A stretch of DNA of 64,000 bases from Scleroderma bovista (taxonomy: Eukaryota; Basidiomycota; Agaricomycetes; Boletales; Sclerodermataceae), in assembly GCA_037178675.1 (NCBI GenBank), contig JAYMGJ010000221.1, positions 62,001 through 126,000 of the forward strand. The letters run 5' to 3'. Below, piece by piece: positions 1 through 57,882 of this stretch (positions within the stretch are counted from its first letter, which is position 1; every line of letters begins with the position of its first letter). Position numbers and translations under genes: made by a program. The notes under the pieces are model-generated. The model made no database searches, was not told where the DNA came from, and saw only the letters and a program-made list of their open reading frames with translations.

Positions 1-3000
1 TCATTGAACATTCGCGATCTTGAGTTGGCACGGATCGTCTTCCCATGCGCCACCATTGCATGCAACTACGCGGTACGTATCGCTCTAAATGACCTGGTTG
101 CAATTAGCTCACGGACTCCAGTGCTCCGAAGTCGGTTTCGCTGGTGTCTCCCAAATGTTCATCCGTCCCAACGACCCTGTCCCGTCTGCCATCTCATTCG
201 GTGCTACGCAAGGTTGCTCCGATCTCGTTCTCCTCGATGAGACCCTGTGTGTCATTTCCAAAGCCGAGGAAGGTGCTACTGGAATCGTCGGCTTCGTTAC
301 AAACCAGAGCGCTACCCACTACTTGGGCAACGAGGATGCTACTAACCACATGTTCCGTGCTTGGGACGGTGAAGAGATGCTCCTCTATACCGACGATATC
401 GGTTGCATGCAGGCTGATGGCACGATCGCAATCAAGGGCCGCAGCTCTCGCAACGTCAAAGTCAACGGCTTGTTCGTAGACCTCGACTACGTTGAGCGTG
501 CATTGGCTCCTGCTTTTGCGAACGCCGGGCACAGAGTCACTGGCTTCAAGCTGGTCAAATCAAATGCCACTGAGAAGATCGTGCTGTTTGCTAGCACTGA
601 GTCGACAGACGCCATGTTCATTCTGAAGCACGCCCGTGATGCACTGAGAGCCTCCAACGGCGACGACCTTGCCATGGTTATCAGCAGTGTCCAATGCATC
701 GCGGAGATGCCTTTCAATGCGTCTTACAAGGTGGATCTCGCTAAGCTCCAGAAGATGGCTGATGAACCCTGTCTCCTCCCGCCTGGTCACTTTGCTGAGG
801 CTCCAGCGACGATCTCTGCAGACGCCAAAATCGACGCCCTGGCAGAGGAGATTGCAGCTGAAATTGCGAAGCTCTCCAAATCCAAGGAGCTCATTCCCGT
901 TACCACGCCTCTTCTTTACTCCGGCCTGAACTCGATCACCGTTGTGCGCCTTTACTTCTGGCTGCAGTCGGAGCATGAATACGAGGAGGAAATGACCCAC
1001 CTGTTCGAGGAGGAAGTCACCCCTCTCGTTCTCGCCATGGAAATATTGGGCGATGAAGTTGATGAGGAGGACGAGGAAGAGTATGCGGATGAGATTGTGA
1101 TTGAACCATCTAGCCCCGCCAGCCAGGCCACCATTGTGGAGGAAGAACCATCCAAGATCGTCCTCGCTGACGACGCAGACGACCTCATCAAGTCTGACAT
1201 ATACGAGCCCGAGTTTGAGGAAGTTGATATCTCGGCGTCCAGGCCTCGTCCCATGAGCACATTAGTTGTCATGCAGCCGCCCGTCGAGCCTGTCCCGGAT
1301 TCCATCAATGACATCGCCAACCACCCAACGCTACACGTAACCGCATTTTCGTTTCTGTTCATGACATGGATGACACCATTACTGAGTTTGGGAGCAAAGA
1401 GGCCATTATTGGAATCGGTAGTTATGTTCGCATCTAATTGAAGTGTACACATGTTCATTGCAATCTATTTCCTAATCACCTGTAGGACTTGCTGCCCTTG
1501 AGACGGAGCGATGAAGCGATCATTGTCGAACGTTGGATTGATCCATTCTGGACTCAGTTGCGAGGTTGGTTCTTTGACAGAAACCGCAAGCTCCCTGGAC
1601 TGTTCAACTCTGTGTTCGGTGCTGCATTTGGATTGTGGTGGGTTTCCTTTGACCACCCGAGAGTTCCAACGTCGTCTGATTTCGTTGGATCAACAGGATT
1701 ATCTCCGGTTTACTGTGGTTCATTTCAATTGGCTCGACTATCATGGCCCCTCTGTTCCTGCAGCAAATTATTGTAGCCGTCAATGCTCCCCCTGTTCCTA
1801 CCAACAATGCCACAGTGCTCGCGGAATACAACAACGTCATTAAGCAGAACACCGGCGGCTTCCCCTTGTTTCTTGACGACACCTACAAGCTCGGCGTCAT
1901 CCTTCTTGGTCTCAAACTAGCTGCTACGCTCTGCGGACGTTCATCGGATCAGCTTGTCAAGCGCATGGCTCTGAACGTCAAGACTGTTCTCATTTCCGCA
2001 GTATACAAGAAGGCCCTGCGTCTCTCTGCTGAGAGTAGTCAGAAATACAACAAGGGTTACATCATGAGCCTCGTCAATGTGGACTGCGAATCCGTCTCCA
2101 AAGCATGGGAGGTCACTCATCAAGTCTGGAGTATCCCTGTACAGCTGACTGTCGTCACGGTTCTCCTCTGTCGCCTCCTCGGTGCTTCTGCGTGGGCTGG
2201 TATCGGAGTTTTGTTCTTGGCACTCTTCATCTTGATCATGGTTGTTCCCGTGTTCATGCGCAAGGCAGCTCCGTGGTTCATGAGACTCGGTGACCGTCGT
2301 CTCAAGACCATTCGTGAAGTGTTGGACGGTATCCGCGTCGTCAAGATTAACGGTTGGGAGGATCACTTCCTGAACAAGCTGGAGGGTATCCGCAACGAGC
2401 AGCTTCGCTGGTTGCGTCAATTCAACACCGGCGTCGCATGCTTCGTCATCGTCGGTCAGATCACCAACACGCTGATGCCCCTTGCTGCGTTTTCATTGTT
2501 TGGAAGGGAGAACATGGGCAAGATTCCAGCTGCCAGAGTATTCCCGGCTCTTTCCTTGTTTGGTATGCTCGTCGATCCTCTGATCGCTCTGCCACAGCTG
2601 CTCAGTGCCTTCGTCGTCGCGATGACTTCATGGGGCCGTATCTATGTGTTCCTTCTTGCGGGTGAGAAGACCTCTACCAGCGACTCTTTCACCAGTGGTA
2701 TCATGAACATCAACCGCTATGCGATCACTATTACTGGTGGTGCATTCTCTTGGCCCAGTGCAGAGACTGCTGCTGCTCCCGCTCCCGCTCCCGTGAAACA
2801 AGAGAAGGTCATCGATGACGATGCCGACAGCATTGACCTCGAGAAAGGCGCAAATAACGAGGAGTCAGAGGAAGCTTCCGGTCCACTCCCCTTCCTCCGC
2901 AGTGTGAACATTGCTATCAAACGCGGCTCCTTGACTGCAGTCGTCGGTAATGTCGGATCTGGAAAGAGCTCTCTCCTGTCTGCGATCATTGGAGAAATGA

Positions 3001-5698
3001 TGCGCGTGTCTGGCGAAGTCAACTGCAACGGGACTGTCGCATACTGCGCCCAACAGGCTTGGATCCAGACCAGCACGATTCAAGAAAACGTTCTCTTCGG
3101 CCGTCCTCTCAACATGCAGCAGCTCCAGAAGGCCATTCAAACCACCTCATTCGACACTGACCTGGAGAGTTTCCCACACGGCTTGGCTACGCAGATGAGC
3201 GAGAAAGGAAACAATCTTAGCGGTGGACAGAAAGCCCGCCTTGCCCTCTCCCGCGCTGTCTATTCCGATGCCGACATCTACCTCTTCGACGATGTCCTCG
3301 CCGCACTCGACCCTCGTGTTGGCCGCAATGTCTTCAACAACTGCATCAGGAAAGCTCTCCGTGGAAAGACCCGTGTTTTGGTCACCCATCAGCTCCAATA
3401 TCTCAACCAGGTCGACCACATCATTGTCGTCTCCGAGGGAAGGATCATCGAGCAAGGCACCTTTGACGAACTCGTTGCCCGGAACGGTGAACTCAATCGC
3501 CTGCTTAGTGACGTCCAGTCATTCTCAGATGACGGCGAGACACAAAAGGATAACAAACGCAAGAGCATGTCCGGTGCCCAGAAGAAGGCCACTGAAGAGA
3601 AACCAGACACCCCCGACCAACTCATCGTCCAGGAAGAACGCAATGTGGGGGCTGTCGGAGCTGCGACCTGGTGGGCTTATCTCAAAGCGACAGGCGGTAT
3701 TAGCATGGCTGTTATTCTGTTCCTCGAAATCGTCATGTTGCAAGGCAGCGTTGTCGTCCTCAGCCAATGGCTCACCTGGTGGACGGAAGACAAATTCAGT
3801 CAGGAAGCTAGCACATGGATCGGCATATACGACGGCATTGGTTTCGCATCTGTTTTGTGTTTGGGTGCGTGCTGCATTCCGGAACCTGAACTACTTGCTG
3901 ATGCAGCTATTTAGTCGTTCTAAACGTCAGCGTCTTGATGAGCACCGTTCGCGCAAGTCGGACCTTCCACTCCAAGGCCCTCCAAGGTGTCCTCCGTGTT
4001 CCTATGTGGTGGTTCGAAGGCCAGCCCATCGGTCGTATCATGAACCGTTTCTCGAAGGATATTGAGGCCATTGATCAGCGCCTTATGCCCCAGCTTTTCC
4101 AATTGGTTGCTGGAATTGGCTCCCTCGTGTCGACCATTGTCATCGTCGGTTATAGCACCCCGATCATGCTTGGTGAGTATGATCGATCAAGTACTGTAGT
4201 ACTTCTGCTGACCGTCTTGATGACCAGCCTTCATGTTCCCAATCGCTGTCATCTACTGGTTTGTTCTGCGCTTCTATCGCAAGTCTCTCCGTGAGCTCAA
4301 GCGTCTCGAGTCTACCCAACGCGGTCCCCTCCAATCCCGCATCAGCGAGACCCTCGACGGCATCCCGACCATCATGGCTTACAGACGTGAGACCGACTTT
4401 GCTAATGCGGTTGGCAGCCTCCTCGATACCAGCAACAAGCCCACGTTCCTGAGGATGCATGCTGGTGCGTTTTCATACCTACCAAGACTGATATCAGTGC
4501 TTATGTGTATACAGAAATCTGGGTTACTTTACGTATGGAGGCCCTGTCTTCTCTGATCGTATTCGCCCTTGTCATGCTCGCACACACGAAACTTGTCGGC
4601 AACAGCACCCAGTTCGCTCTCGCTTTGACATATGCTTCTACTCTTACCTACCTTATGAACTTGCTCCTCAAGAGCGCTGCTAATGTCGAAGCTGAGGTAT
4701 GTGAACGAACGCCAACTCCATCGAAATATTTGCTGAGGGATGCTCTGTAGATGAACTCTGTCGAACGTCTCATGAACTACACAGAGAGCCTTCCACAGGA
4801 GCCCGCCGCCCGTCTTGCCTCTGATCCTACACAAGCAATGTGGCCCACTCGTGGACAAATCGTTCTTCGTGACATCGACGCCGCCTACCCATCTCGTCCA
4901 GACAAGCTTGTCCTCCGCAGCGTCAACCTCACTTTCAGGGCTGGCGAGACCGTCTTCATCGTTGGAAGGACTGGATCTGGGAAGTCTACGCTCTTGTCAC
5001 TGCTACTTCGGATGATCGACCCCAGTGCTGGCTCAGTCGAGATTGATGGAAGAGGTATGTTGTCATTCTCGTTGGTGTTTAGCGTAACATCTAAAAATAT
5101 CTGCCAGACATCACCTCCGTCGGATTGGCTACCTTACGCCAGGCCATGCAGGTGATTCCCCAAGGCATGTACCAGACCTGCTATCAAGTGTGCCTACAAC
5201 TAACAAACTACTGCAGATCCTTTCATCTTCTCTGGAACCATTCGCTCTGCTTTGGACTTTGAGGGTAAATTCGATGACAAAGCACTCTGGCAGGTGCTCG
5301 AGCTCGTTGGACTTAAGCAATTCGTGACCTCGCAAGAGTGCAAGCTTGACACCGTCGTCGAGGACAACGGATCCAATTACTCCGTTGGTCAACGCCAGCT
5401 CCTCTGCCTCGCTGCTGCGATCCTGCGCAACCCAAAGATCCTTCTTCTGGATGAGGCTACCGCATCCATCGACGCTGGTGCAGACGTATTCATTCAACAG
5501 GCGATGCGTCAGAGCTGCCCGAATGCCACGATTCTGAGCGTGATGCACCGGATGAGCGACCGGATTCTCGAAGAGTGCGACAGAGTATTGGTCATGGAGC
5601 AGGGTGTGCCGGTTGAATTCGCTTCTCCTAGTGAACTTCTGGCGCGGCCGAACAGCATGTTTTCGAAGCTGATGGCCGCGGCGAGAAACAGCAATTGA
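1..5698 (+). CDS. Adenylation-carrier domain fused to ABCC (MRP-type) transporter; 5' end outside window
   Basis: Ten exons hold one frame: <1-72, 122-1417, 1486-1637, 1697-3864, 3915-4172, 4228-4464, 4515-4696, 4751-5054, 5108-5164, 5217-5698 (about 1,735 residues in the window). The first ~250 residues are the C-terminal half of an acyl-adenylating (AMP-binding) domain: YTDDIG (A7-like), GRSSRNVKVNG (A8-like) and NASYKVDL (A10-like, with the catalytic Lys). A carrier domain follows; its phosphopantetheine Ser is in SGLNSITVV (codon 932-934). About 75 very acidic residues then lead, with no stop or splice site, into a full ABCC transporter lacking TMD0. NBD1 has GNVGSGKSS, LSGGQK and LFDDVLAALD (Asp in place of the catalytic Glu, usual for ABCC). 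NBD2 has GRTGSGKST and LLLDEATASID. The family exports conjugates and drugs at plasma or vacuolar membranes; coupling acyl activation to export is inference. The intron at 3865-3914 has alternative borders. The intron at 5165-5216 is GC-AG. Confidence 0.85.
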
Positions 5699-53664: not shown

Positions 53665-56600
53665 AATGGCGAAAACAGCTCTCCGATGAGCGACCGCAGC
53701 CATAAAGCCTCCTTGGCTGCGTGCGTTGCGGCCACGTACTCGCTCTCCGTCGTTGACAACGAAACAATCTCCTGCTTTTTGGAAGACCACGATACAGCGC
53801 CGCCATCGATCAAGAAAGCATACCCAGAGATCGCTTTGCGATCCTCTGCCATGCTGCCATCTGCGTCCGCATAGCCGACCAGCGCGCTCGGCGCTCCTCC
53901 GTACGTGAGTCTCAAATCTTTCGTCCCAAGTAGGTAACAATAAATTCGTCTGACGGCCTCCCAGTGAGGCATTCCAGGGTTATTCGAGAAACGCGAGACA
54001 GTGGTCACAGCATACGAAATGTCGGGACGAGTGGCGAGGGAAGCATACATGAGCGAGCCAACGGCTTCGCGATAAGGTATGTGACGCATTGCAGCGTATT
54101 CAGCGCCAGTCTACGGTGACTGACCTGAGTGCAATTTAGTGCTCGGTTCCATCGGGTTCGACACGGGCTTGAGCTCGTCGAAACCGAAACGGCGGGCAAT
54201 TGACTCGATGTAGGGTCGTTGACACAACGCGACGGTATGTTCGTCTCTGTTTCTCGTCACCTCAATCCCCAACAGCCAGTGGAGTTCGCCGAGGTCGGTG
54301 ATCTCCACGTGCTTCCTTATGTCGCGCTTGAATTCATTAATCTCCTTCAGGGATGTAGCAGCAATGGTGCAATCATTGACATGCACGACAATGATAACGA
54401 GCTCACCGGGCTTGCGGCGCCTGAAGTAAACGGCCTGGTCGACAGAACATTGGGTGAAACCCATTTCATCGACGAGGATCTCCACCAGCCGCTGATACCA
54501 GCGACGACCGCTTTGTTTTAAGCCATACAACGTCTTTCGAAGACGGCAGACTTTGTGGGGGTGGTCAGCAGACTCGAAACCGGGTGGCTGACGCATGTAA
54601 ATGACTTCGTCGTCGGTGAGTGTCCCGTTCAGGTATGCGCCCTTGATGTCGATCTGATGAAGCTCCAGGTCTGATCGTGCTGCCATAGCGAGGACTGTTC
54701 GAATAGACGCAAGCGTTGCGACTGGGGCAAAAGTGTCGAAGTAATCAACACCTTCGACCTGTGAGTATCCCTGGGCGACGAGTCGGGCTTTGTGGCGGAC
54801 CACATTGCCTGCAGCGTCCTTCTTTGCGCGGAAGACCCACTTGGATCCGACTATGTTGGCGCCGTGAGGTACGTCAACAAGTTCCCAGGTGCCGGCTGCC
54901 TGCAAAGTCGCTAACTCCTCCTTTATGCCTGCCTCCCACTGCAACCAATCTGGGCGACGGCGGGCTTCAGCCAATGAGCTAGGCTCTAGGGCCTCAGACT
55001 CGGCGGTGGCTGTCTCCATCATCATGGCAAGATCGACAGCACACAAGACATTGTCTGTGTCCTCGACAACCGTCATGAGATACGCTGCTGCGAGGTTGTC
55101 GTCGTCAAGGGGGTTGGTGAGTCCAGGGAGGATGACGGATTCTGCGATCTCAGTCGGGAGCTGCACGCCTCATGGTACAGTGGGTTGGCCACGTCGACCT
55201 ATATTGCCCTGACCTGCAAGAATGTCAGCAACGCGTTGGCTGGGCTTACGGACTCGCTTTTCGACAGGCGGGTCATCTGGAGGTGGTGCAACCTTGAGAG
55301 GAATCGGGATAACAGGGGCGGGCGGTACAGCTCTCGTTACTGGAACTGGGGGTGGAGCCGTTAGTATCGCGTTAGGTAAGTTACTCTCTTCTTGCTCCCC
55401 CTCGCGAGATAACGGCTCAGCAGAGGTCGGGTCCCAGTACACGTTCCGCTCGACAGAGACAACATTTTTCAGGCCAGTAGACACGACAACCGTTAGGGCT
55501 GTCATCATCAATGCCCACCCAGCGACCTTCCACAACGCGCCCACCCAGCTTAGTTCCCCCTTCAACACGCACCCAGACACACGAGCCCCATACGCGTGCT
55601 CGGCTAAGGTCAGGCTTCTGCCCAGTGGCAGCCTCGAGAGGCGTCCCGCCCTCGAGTGCTTTTGTTGGCGTCCGATTCTTCAGCCAGACGGCATGGCGGA
55701 CAGCCTCGCCCCATAGCGTACAAGGTAAGCCGCTCTCGTGTAGCATGGCTCTGACTTTCTCCAGCAAGGTATGGTTGAGACGCTCAGCGACGCCGTTGTG
55801 CTGCGGAGTGTCATGAACGGTAAGCTTTTGCTTCGTTCCAGCTGCCTTGAGATACATAATAAACTCCTTTCCAAGGTACTCTCCGCCACGATCGGAGTGC
55901 AGTGCCTTGACAGCGACACCGTGCTGGGTACGGCACCAAGCCTCGAACTGCTGGTAGGCGGTAAAGGCTTCGCTCTTCTGGCGGAGGAGATGCAGGTACG
56001 TGAGGCGGGTCTTGTCATCTGTGAACGTGATATAGTAACGTCGTCCTCCAAGGGTTTGGACGGGAGCTGGTCCCCATACATCTGTATGCACCTCAGCAGC
56101 AAATTCTTTGGCACGCTCGCCAGCACGCTCCTTGGCGACGGGCTTCCTGGTGGCCTTCGCATAGACACAGGCCTCACAGAAGGTAGGTTCGTCTTTCGAC
56201 AAATCAAACTTCAAGCCTGATACAAGTCCATTTTCTGCCAAGCGGCGAGCAACGGTCGGCAAGATATGTCCCATTCTGCGATGAAGCTCCATGACAGTAA
56301 CAGTCTCGACCGCATTCGCACTGTCATCCCCACCGGTGTGGATGACACGATAAAGTCCTGCCTGGGACTTAGGCACGCACCCAATGACATCGTCGTCAGG
56401 GCTGCGAATGGTACAAGTTCCGTCGGCAAAGGTGACAGAATATCCAAGCTGGTCGAGACGCCCAATGGACACCAGAGTGTAGCCCACTGCAGGCGAAAAC
56501 AAGACTTCGGTGAGTATGAGCTTGGTCGTGTCATACCCGTTAGGCACATCAATGACCAAGTCACCGACTGCAGTAGCGTCGAAGGACTGTTTATTGGCGG

Positions 56601-57882
56601 CCGAGAATGATTTTGGTGGGATATCCGTGAGAGACGTGAACTTGTCTTTATATGGCGAGATATGACGCGTGGAGCCGGAATCATAGAGCTCAACAACGGG
56701 CGCGCTAATCTGGCTATCATGCACCAGACTCGCGGAATCTGAGGGGAATTCAGCAGGGTTGTCATCAGAGGTGACATCACCAGGAGGTAAGCTCTCTCCT
56801 CCTTCGTCTGTATCTCCCATCTCACTGAAACAATCCTCCTCAGATGAAACATAGTTCCACCTTTCTTCGTCATCGCCATCAGAAGTATCGCTCAGCAAGT
56901 CAAGGTCGCCCAGAGCAATCACCGAAAATGCTCCCTCCTCTTCTGAGTCGAATGTAGCCGCATTAGCTGAGTCCTTCTTAGCGTCATCAGCGGTGCTTCG
57001 GCTCGCTGACTTATCAGGTTTGGGGCATCGAGACTTGAAGTGCTCTCTCGATCCACAGTTCCAACATGGACCATGCTGGCGGGTGGGTCCTGTGGAGCTG
57101 TTCCCTTGTCGTCCATCCCTCCAGTTCCCTCGCCCCCGGCTGGAAAAATTCCCAGGAGCCACAGCCAAGGCTTCATCGCCATCGCGAGCCTTCTGTTTCG
57201 TGCGTAAGTACCGAGTCTCCTTGCGACCGCGTCGCTCTGACTCTTCGATAATCAGGGAAATGAGAATGTCGGGATCAATTGTCTTTGTTTGACTGTACAG
57301 ACGAGCAGTCGCCAGTTGCCCAGACGCGAAGCTGGCGAGGTATTTCGGAAGTGATTGAATGATAGTCGATCGATAATCCTTTTCTTCGATCTGTACGCCG
57401 ACGGCAGCTAACTCGTCTCTCTTCGTACGCAAATCGTCCAAGAACTGGCGGACATCGCCATCGACAGGGCACTGCGAGCCCAAAAACTTCGTTCGGAGGT
57501 CTGTCTGAGCATAAGCTCCTTTCTCTGTATACTCACGAACGATTTCGTTCCACATAGCCTCAACGTTATCGAGACTCTGTACTCGGAGGGCAGTGGAGTC
57601 AGGAATTCATTGGGTAAGCAAGTGTTTTGCCATATTCTCGCTCTTCTGCCATTTTGCAAGCTCATCAGCGTCCGGGGGTGTTGTGGTCACAGTTCCGTCG
57701 GTGGCAGTGCTGGTAGTACTGACAGGACGTGCGGAGGTTCCGTCAAAGTGCGACCACAACTCCTTTGCTTCGACAGCAGTCCGGAAACGGAGCGAGAAGA
57801 TCGCCCAGTTGGCACCTTTGATGTCAAGCTTCGGGACGTTACCCGGGAGGGTATCAGTGGTAATGGGGATGGCAGTGGCCAT
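53665..57882 (-). pseudogene. Copia gag-pol polyprotein, inactivated
   Basis: The frame starts at 57882 (MATAIPITTDTLPG). Gag has a CCHC knuckle (CWNCGSREHFKSRC). The protease motif is DSGSTRHIS. Integrase has the HHCC finger (MELHRRMGHILP, then CEACVYAK) and the DDE core (HTDVWGP, SDRGGEYLG, TPQHNGVAERLNH). RT has WVFRAKKDAAG, QIDIKGAYLNG and LYGLKQSGRRWYQRL. RNase H begins ALVGYADADGS and is cut off after KEALWLRSLIGE. Lesions: in-frame stops at 57607-57609 (TGA), 55170-55172 (TGA) and 54111-54113 (TAG), one frameshift near 55,450, and Asn in place of the first catalytic Asp of the YVDD box (HVNDCTIA). It cannot make a working polyprotein. Confidence 0.9.

Follow-up and report, generated by a model that had tools for sequence, protein, structure and literature searches.

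An adenylation-carrier module fused to a full ABCC exporter in Scleroderma bovista and its tentative role in coupled acid activation and export

A locus in the genome of Scleroderma bovista (51.8 Mb, 850 contigs) raises the question whether one gene joins an acyl-activating module to a complete membrane exporter and, if so, what the two parts might do together. The window, i.e. the whole stretch of 64,000 nucleotides that was analysed (bases 62001-126000 of contig JAYMGJ010000221.1), opens inside this gene, whose adenylation (A) domain starts further upstream, as an earlier note on the same DNA had anticipated. We added 9.5 kb of upstream sequence (stretch L009) to the window, spliced the gene by hand, and compared its product with relatives in other fungi.

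One gene for adenylation, carrier and exporter

The fusion gene spans window -960 (ATG) to 5698 and consists of 12 exons and 11 introns, with a frame that is open throughout and encodes 2,021 codons plus a stop, i.e. a product of 2,021 amino acids (aa). Introns are 49-68 bp long, ten with GT-AG and one with GC-AG borders. From the N to the C terminus, the single polypeptide comprises the A domain, a carrier (T), an acidic linker and a full exporter of the ATP-binding cassette (ABC) family ABCC, with two transmembrane domains (TMD) and two nucleotide-binding domains (NBD). The junction lies in exon 4 (1,296 bp), which is unbroken over A motifs A5-A10, the codon of the carrier Ser, the linker and the ABC elbow, just as the earlier note had read it. 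That note had also counted nine later introns in phase: the frame does stay open to the stop codon, but nine is the number within the window and only eight follow the junction exon. These observations confirm that the A-T-ABCC fusion is real and lies at the coordinates collected in Table 1. The GC-AG intron is located within NBD2 (window 5165-5216), and the frame depends on its removal. A pseudogene was considered and rejected, as neither the frame nor any motif was seen to be broken.

A Pfam search of the full protein identified AMP-binding at 15-361 (E 5.5e-21), two ABC_membrane and two ABC_tran domains, the latter four making up a full ABC-C complement with intact ABC motifs. NBD2, for example, displays Walker A (GRTGSGKST), the signature YSVGQ and Walker B with its Glu, and is followed by the H-switch VMHRM at aa 1970. 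The ANL motif set is present as well, with A3 (TSGSTG at aa 158), the A5 Glu, A7 Asp, A8 Arg and A10 Lys, of which A7 and A8 deviate in sequence (YTDDIG and GRSS). The transporter thus stands where a reductase, thioesterase or condensation domain had been expected, none of these being found among the best 25 of 36 Pfam matches. The carrier family PF00550 is also absent from these 25 matches, and it remains below the gathering score (15.6 of 20.8 bits) when the carrier is searched as an 85-aa peptide. The carrier call is based instead on the GLNSIT motif, on PF00550 matches in relatives with two or three GLNSIT-type motifs (the single-carrier proteins P0085, P0087 and P0089 have no PF00550 match), and on the four-helix bundle that is predicted for the orthologue P0089. 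In that model, Ser581 opens the predicted helix 581-595, and the predicted local distance difference test (pLDDT) score is 84-90 at 551-620 and 63 at 541-550.

Table 1. Features of the fusion gene, in window coordinates
Feature	Position	Strand	Basis or remark
Exon 3, 3' part (A domain)	1..72	+	Gene model; exons 1-2 and rest of exon 3 upstream, window -960 to -1
Intron 3 (GTACGT..CTCCAG)	73..121	+	NYA/CSEVGF join matches uninterrupted P0001, P0003
Exon 4	122..1417	+	Gene model; A end, carrier, linker, elbow
A domain, C-terminal part	122..764	+	A10 Lys513, Glu313, Asp402, Arg417 conserved
Carrier (T), aa 541-622	812..1057	+	Predicted four-helix bundle in Pisolithus P0089 (same numbering); weak Pfam match
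Codon of carrier Ser581 (GLNSIT)	932..934	+	Gene model, motif scan
Acidic linker, predicted disordered	1055..1321	+	27 D/E vs 4 K/R in 85 aa; pLDDT <50 at 622-721
ABC elbow/lasso HPTLHVTAFSFLFMTWMTPLLSLGAKRPLLES	1322..1417	+	Gene model
Intron 4, donor GTAGTT, longest of 11	1418..1485	+	Gene model
Tail VVMFASN + stop in intron 4, a candidate alternative 3' end for A-T alone	1418..1441	+	Relatives compared
Exons 5 and 6: TMD1, NBD1, linker, start of TMD2	1486..3864	+	Pfam: TMD1 1698-2582, NBD1 2895-3296
TMD2, aa 1465-1729, exons 6-9	3711..4660	+	Gene model, Pfam
NBD2, aa 1796-1944, exons 10-12	4913..5464	+	Gene model, Pfam
Stop codon of fusion	5696..5698	+	Gene model

Conservation of the fusion, its predicted pocket and pump-less relatives

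The full protein retrieved 80 proteins, of which the top six all belong to the fusion family: P0001 (84% identity over 100%), P0002 of Astraeus odoratus (84% over 76%), P0003 (75% over 100%), P0004 of Chiua virens (70% over 89%), and P0005 (42% over 100%) and P0006 (47% over 42%), both paralogues from the chytrid Irineochytrium annulatum. P0001, P0002, P0003, P0005 and P0006 share the A-T-ABCC layout, which, judged from these sequences, is therefore not due to chance. P0004 and P0213 are partial A-T-ABC proteins; the P0004 model starts inside A and lacks its first part, perhaps because of a shifted frame. P0001 is an uninterrupted fused open reading frame (ORF) of 2,021 aa on a contig of at most 8,188 bp, and P0003 is one of 2,004 aa on at most 6,368 bp. 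Since the gene in the window yields such a frame only once 11 introns are spliced out, both look like spliced transcripts, which weakens the idea of two genes.

With the ABC half as query, we counted as family the 28 matches above P0219, among the best 120 of 202. Down to P0218 these have at least 52% identity, except the chytrid P0006 (47%), and the matches below have at most 35%; P0005 was part of the query, yet is not among the matches listed. A-T, or part of it, is present in six family members (P0001-P0004, P0006, and P0213), whereas the start of the remaining 22, which are models or ORFs, falls within the linker or within the ABC half. The elbow motif occurs in 7/8 fused sequences, its imperfect pattern missing the fused P0213, versus 0/22 unfused ABC models, so that the pump seems to be kept in this family only together with A-T. 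In an ABC tree of 37 leaves (26 family members and 11 hand-picked outgroups, with P0209 and P0216-P0218 left out), the family forms one clade (support 0.998) made of the chytrid pair, P0213, and 23 Boletales sequences. By E-value, the best other ABC match in the S. bovista genome has 36% identity, over the NBD1 part.

These data also bear on whether two adjacent genes were joined by annotation or assembly, a reading that we rejected and regard as hardly credible. Public models do fit a split on contigs of equal size, namely P0089/P0207 in Pisolithus marmoratus, P0127/P0214 in P. microcarpus, and P0087 with P0203/P0204 in Boletus coccyginus. Against this, a single exon crosses the join, P0003 and P0001 are fused ORFs, the elbow motif is missing from all 22 unfused ABC models, and P0001 is nested inside the Pisolithus group of the ABC tree (support 1.0). 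As this is the group with seemingly split public models, the split appears to be one of annotation. Neither of the situations named earlier as speaking for separate genes, two transcripts or homologues that are always separate, found support.

Motif scanning of 38 proteins, including the window's own, found the A10 Lys motif in 37, the carrier Ser in 37 and the A3 motif in 31, the seven without A3 being fragments or models that do not cover it. The C. virens protein P0004 has Pro in place of the carrier Ser (GLTPIT), and the same species also has an A-T-T protein, P0086. P0213 (1,624 aa, 35 member sequences) is a partial fusion that perhaps represents another lineage with an inactive A domain.

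We mapped the ten PheA pocket positions via motif anchors, using PheA numbering (Asp235). The pocket LRFHVGNFAK is identical in 22 of the 24 sequences in which all ten positions are readable, both chytrid copies included; the two exceptions are A-T-T proteins with Tyr at the fourth position. Leu202 occupies the Asp235 position in 24/24 sequences readable there, and a separate alignment also places Leu202 in the Asp235 column, in which 18/20 comparators have Asp. The A domain thus lacks the Asp typical of alpha-amino acid activation, and because Leu202 replaces it an ordinary alpha-amino acid is an unlikely substrate. The same acid is probably used throughout the fusion family, and Arg203 and His249 might, at a guess, hint at an acidic or polar one. 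Given that the predicted pocket does not differ between chytrid and bolete, a single conserved metabolite is the probable cargo.

A-T profile searching retrieved 116 proteins, among them A-T-T proteins in boletes (Tylopilus felleus, Chiua virens, and Boletus edulis) and A-T-T-T proteins in Gelatoporia, Thelephora, and many further contigs. Ten of 15 bolete A-T-T sequences end in an ABC elbow remnant, e.g. FSFLFSSWITPL..ETRRPLLDSVL (P0081, P0131, P0132, P0134, and P0135 included), which suggests that some copies probably lost the pump; no remnant was seen in P0084, P0086, P0088, P0138, and P0139. P0132 and P0135 have Ile where the donor GT would be, and this site could therefore not splice. An A tree of 29 sequences places the A-T-T proteins (0.938) as sister to the Boletaceae fusions (0.992), with a joint node (0.978) inside the fusion clade, when rooted on the chytrid, which is an assumption, as a single chytrid genus could have gained the gene sideways. 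Pump loss would be the simplest reading for A-T-T, and the A-T-T-T proteins may either have lost a pump or never have carried one. No second A-T or A-T-T paralogue was found in the S. bovista genome, where all three A-T matches fall in the fusion gene; a PF00501 search of the genome gave scores for 15 of 44 candidates, the fusion gene not being among those listed, and is no guide here.

A conserved in-frame tail in intron 4

When the frame is read on into intron 4, it encodes VVMFASN and then a stop. The pattern V[VL][MI]Fx[SF][GN] fits 20/20 fusion-type sequences reaching this intron, the window included, and the stop follows seven tail codons in 19/20, P0158 being the exception (P0147, with an A-T-T-T-like end and no elbow, was dropped from the count). 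Pairwise identity was compared on amino-acid letters, in a sample that includes many related boletes and mostly resembles ORFs from unspliced DNA. It averages 0.79 in the tail, 0.80 in the coded elbow and 0.51 in the coded linker; 106 of the 190 pairs have a linker identity below 0.5, and for these the averages are 0.73, 0.75 and 0.43, respectively. There are eight distinct tails, and without the two splice-site codons the tail mean is 0.73. Because the tail and its stop are about as conserved as the coded elbow, a second product consisting of A-T alone is suggested. A control for read-through, intron 6, is limited to two sequences: P0217 diverged from the window, and the closer P0218 is still similar.

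The intron-4 donor is itself weak. Nine of the 11 donors of the fusion gene have G at position +5, and the remaining two have A (intron 1) and T (intron 4); provided that their junction matches, the relatives would also have T at +5, as V[VL] implies. The sequence of P0085 (733 aa, on at most 2,422 bp) looks like one from which introns 1-3 have been removed and in which intron 4 is retained, the form that an A-T-only transcript would have. The tail would be either coded protein or a splicing signal. If it does mark a second product, the locus would use alternative ends to separate enzyme and transporter, and the tail may explain public annotations that seem to cut the fusion gene in two.

A broader proposal builds on this tail and, with all its parts taken jointly, strikes us as unlikely. 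Regulated retention of intron 4 would yield a free acid-loading A-T, ending LLES-VVxFxS[GN], next to the A-T-ABC pump. The loaded carrier would dock at the pump so that activation and export of one conserved organic acid are coupled within the chain. This would be a kind of outward vectorial acylation that either has persisted since chytrids and mushrooms diverged or was transferred from one group to the other. The short form of Boletaceae would have gained a gene of its own (A-T-T), often keeping the remnant of the pump's first segment.

Possible functions and comparison with known systems

The reading that we favour, tentatively and with a probability of about 0.45, is that A loads an acid onto T and that the product, once completed by a partner in trans, is exported by the ABC part. 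The A domain would convert one specific carboxylic acid to its acyl-AMP, and the prediction is that this acid differs from ordinary alpha-amino acids. The acyl group would be loaded as a thioester onto the phosphopantetheine arm of T, which a flexible acidic linker ties to a full ABCC exporter in the position where other ABCC proteins have TMD0. Since no release domain was found in cis, a trans partner, either an acyltransferase or a module of a non-ribosomal peptide synthetase (NRPS), would take the acyl group, and the ABC part would export the finished product. Intron 4, with its weak donor and conserved in-frame stop, would probably also give a pump-less A-T form. The interpretation in the earlier note is supported in part: a single polypeptide has intact A, T and ABC motifs with a transporter after the carrier, and the hand-off of a tethered substrate to it would be a hypothetical step.

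Candidates for a partner were sought in ten neighbouring ORFs, i.e. seven of the 19 window ORFs of at least 170 aa outside the fusion gene (all below 37.2 kb) and three upstream ones. Six match housekeeping-like families (Mus7/MMS22, Rcd1, CCCH/DUF1771, cation efflux, and clathrin twice) and four have no match at E 0.001. As the nameable neighbours are housekeeping-like, a partner, if any, is probably encoded elsewhere. Further along, two long ORFs on the minus strand at window 54114-57606 look by eye like a Copia-type retrotransposon.

Several findings weigh against this reading. There is no partner gene or biosynthetic cluster among the ten ORFs, and the existence of A-T-T and A-T-T-T relatives without an ABC part indicates that A-T can work without the pump. 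The P0089 model behind the carrier is weak (overall pLDDT 61.9, below 50 at 154-223), with a root mean square deviation above 13 in every structure match listed (pdb_via). The identity of the pocket is not specific to it, because window and chytrid share the surrounding stretches as a whole: 30/32 residues at 190-221, 15/17 at 246-262, and 28/45 at 276-320, compared with 265/519 over the A domain. Lastly, the carrier Ser is missing from P0004, and P0213 has no A10 Lys motif. One residue missing in each of these two is also what might be expected of a decaying passenger without activity, which we nonetheless hold to be very improbable, since chytrid and bolete have the catalytic residues and the pocket in common although their A-T parts share just 51% identity.

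Two further explanations leave A-T active and differ in what the pump does. The ABC part could merely anchor A-T at the membrane, or A-T could sense or regulate the pump, with no hand-off; we consider this possible although somewhat unlikely. It would agree with the same or nearly the same pocket in ABC-less A-T-T and A-T-T-T proteins, with the length, acidity and poor conservation of the linker, and with a conserved intron-4 stop that would part A-T from the pump, but it sits uneasily with a pump that seems to be kept only with A-T, no unfused model having an elbow of its own. Alternatively, by analogy with D-alanylation (DltA-DltC-DltB), the loaded carrier could acylate the ABC part itself, which would then carry the acyl group over the membrane to an outside acceptor. 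The lack of a cis release domain and the presence of DltA among the structure matches (pdb_via) of the A part are in line with this, yet the ABC half has no residue shown to accept an acyl group and is by sequence an ordinary ABCC, unlike DltB, which is of the MBOAT class; we judge it quite improbable. The fusion lends itself to examining whether an acyl-carrier can feed a membrane pump in cis.

Comparison with known systems brings out what is particular about the layout. In Pls (epsilon-Poly-L-lysine synthetase) and PosA (delta-poly-L-ornithine synthetase), a single A-T is likewise followed by membrane segments in one chain. Pls has tandem condensation-like domains between these segments and a diamino acid substrate, whereas the fusion protein has ABC_membrane and ABC_tran domains instead, which make up a complete ABCC including two NBDs, and lacks Asp235. 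P0194 (PF05977+PF00501+PF01553+PF07690: MFS, acyltransferase, and AMP-binding), a weak match only (E 8e-4), is presumably an LplT-Aas-like bacterial fusion, which resembles our protein in joining an AMP-forming acid ligase to a transporter, but with an MFS flippase plus acyltransferase and no ABC. In DltA/DltC/DltB, an acid ligase and a carrier also feed a membrane protein; there, the proteins are separate, the membrane protein is an MBOAT rather than an ABC, and D-Ala is activated. NRPS-like A-T-R and A-T-TE proteins share the single A-T module and differ by the reductase or thioesterase. The pump has the two TMDs, two NBDs and asymmetric motifs of ABCC exporters (ABC transporter C family member 2, ABCC1-5, and Ycf1), and differs from them in carrying A-T in place of TMD0.

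The closest precedent answers the earlier remark that no described enzyme of this layout was known. In Boletales, an AMP-binding domain has been reported at the N terminus of an ABC-C transporter, and a hypothesis of coupled synthesis and transport is cited for it (Kovalchuk et al. 2015, PMC4692070), so that layout and coupling idea are both already in print. NRPS clusters are reported to adjoin such genes in Coniophora puteana and Serpula lacrymans, but in none of the mycorrhizal species (PMC4692070). The S. bovista protein agrees with this type in its N-terminal AMP-binding domain, full ABC-C part and isolated clade (0.998), and comes from the same order, in which Scleroderma citrinum and Pisolithus were analysed (PMC4692070). 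The words carrier, PP-binding and phosphopantetheine are absent from the main text of PMC4692070, and A-T-T/A-T-T-T relatives, chytrid copy, pocket and intron-4 tail are not found in its available parts. Our literature search on the layout found nothing on a carrier in it; A-T-T relatives, the chytrid copy and the intron-4 tail were not met in searches that did not ask for them by name. Relative to what is in print, the present analysis thus adds the carrier, a chytrid fusion with the same predicted pocket, the elbow remnants of A-T-T proteins and the intron-4 tail.

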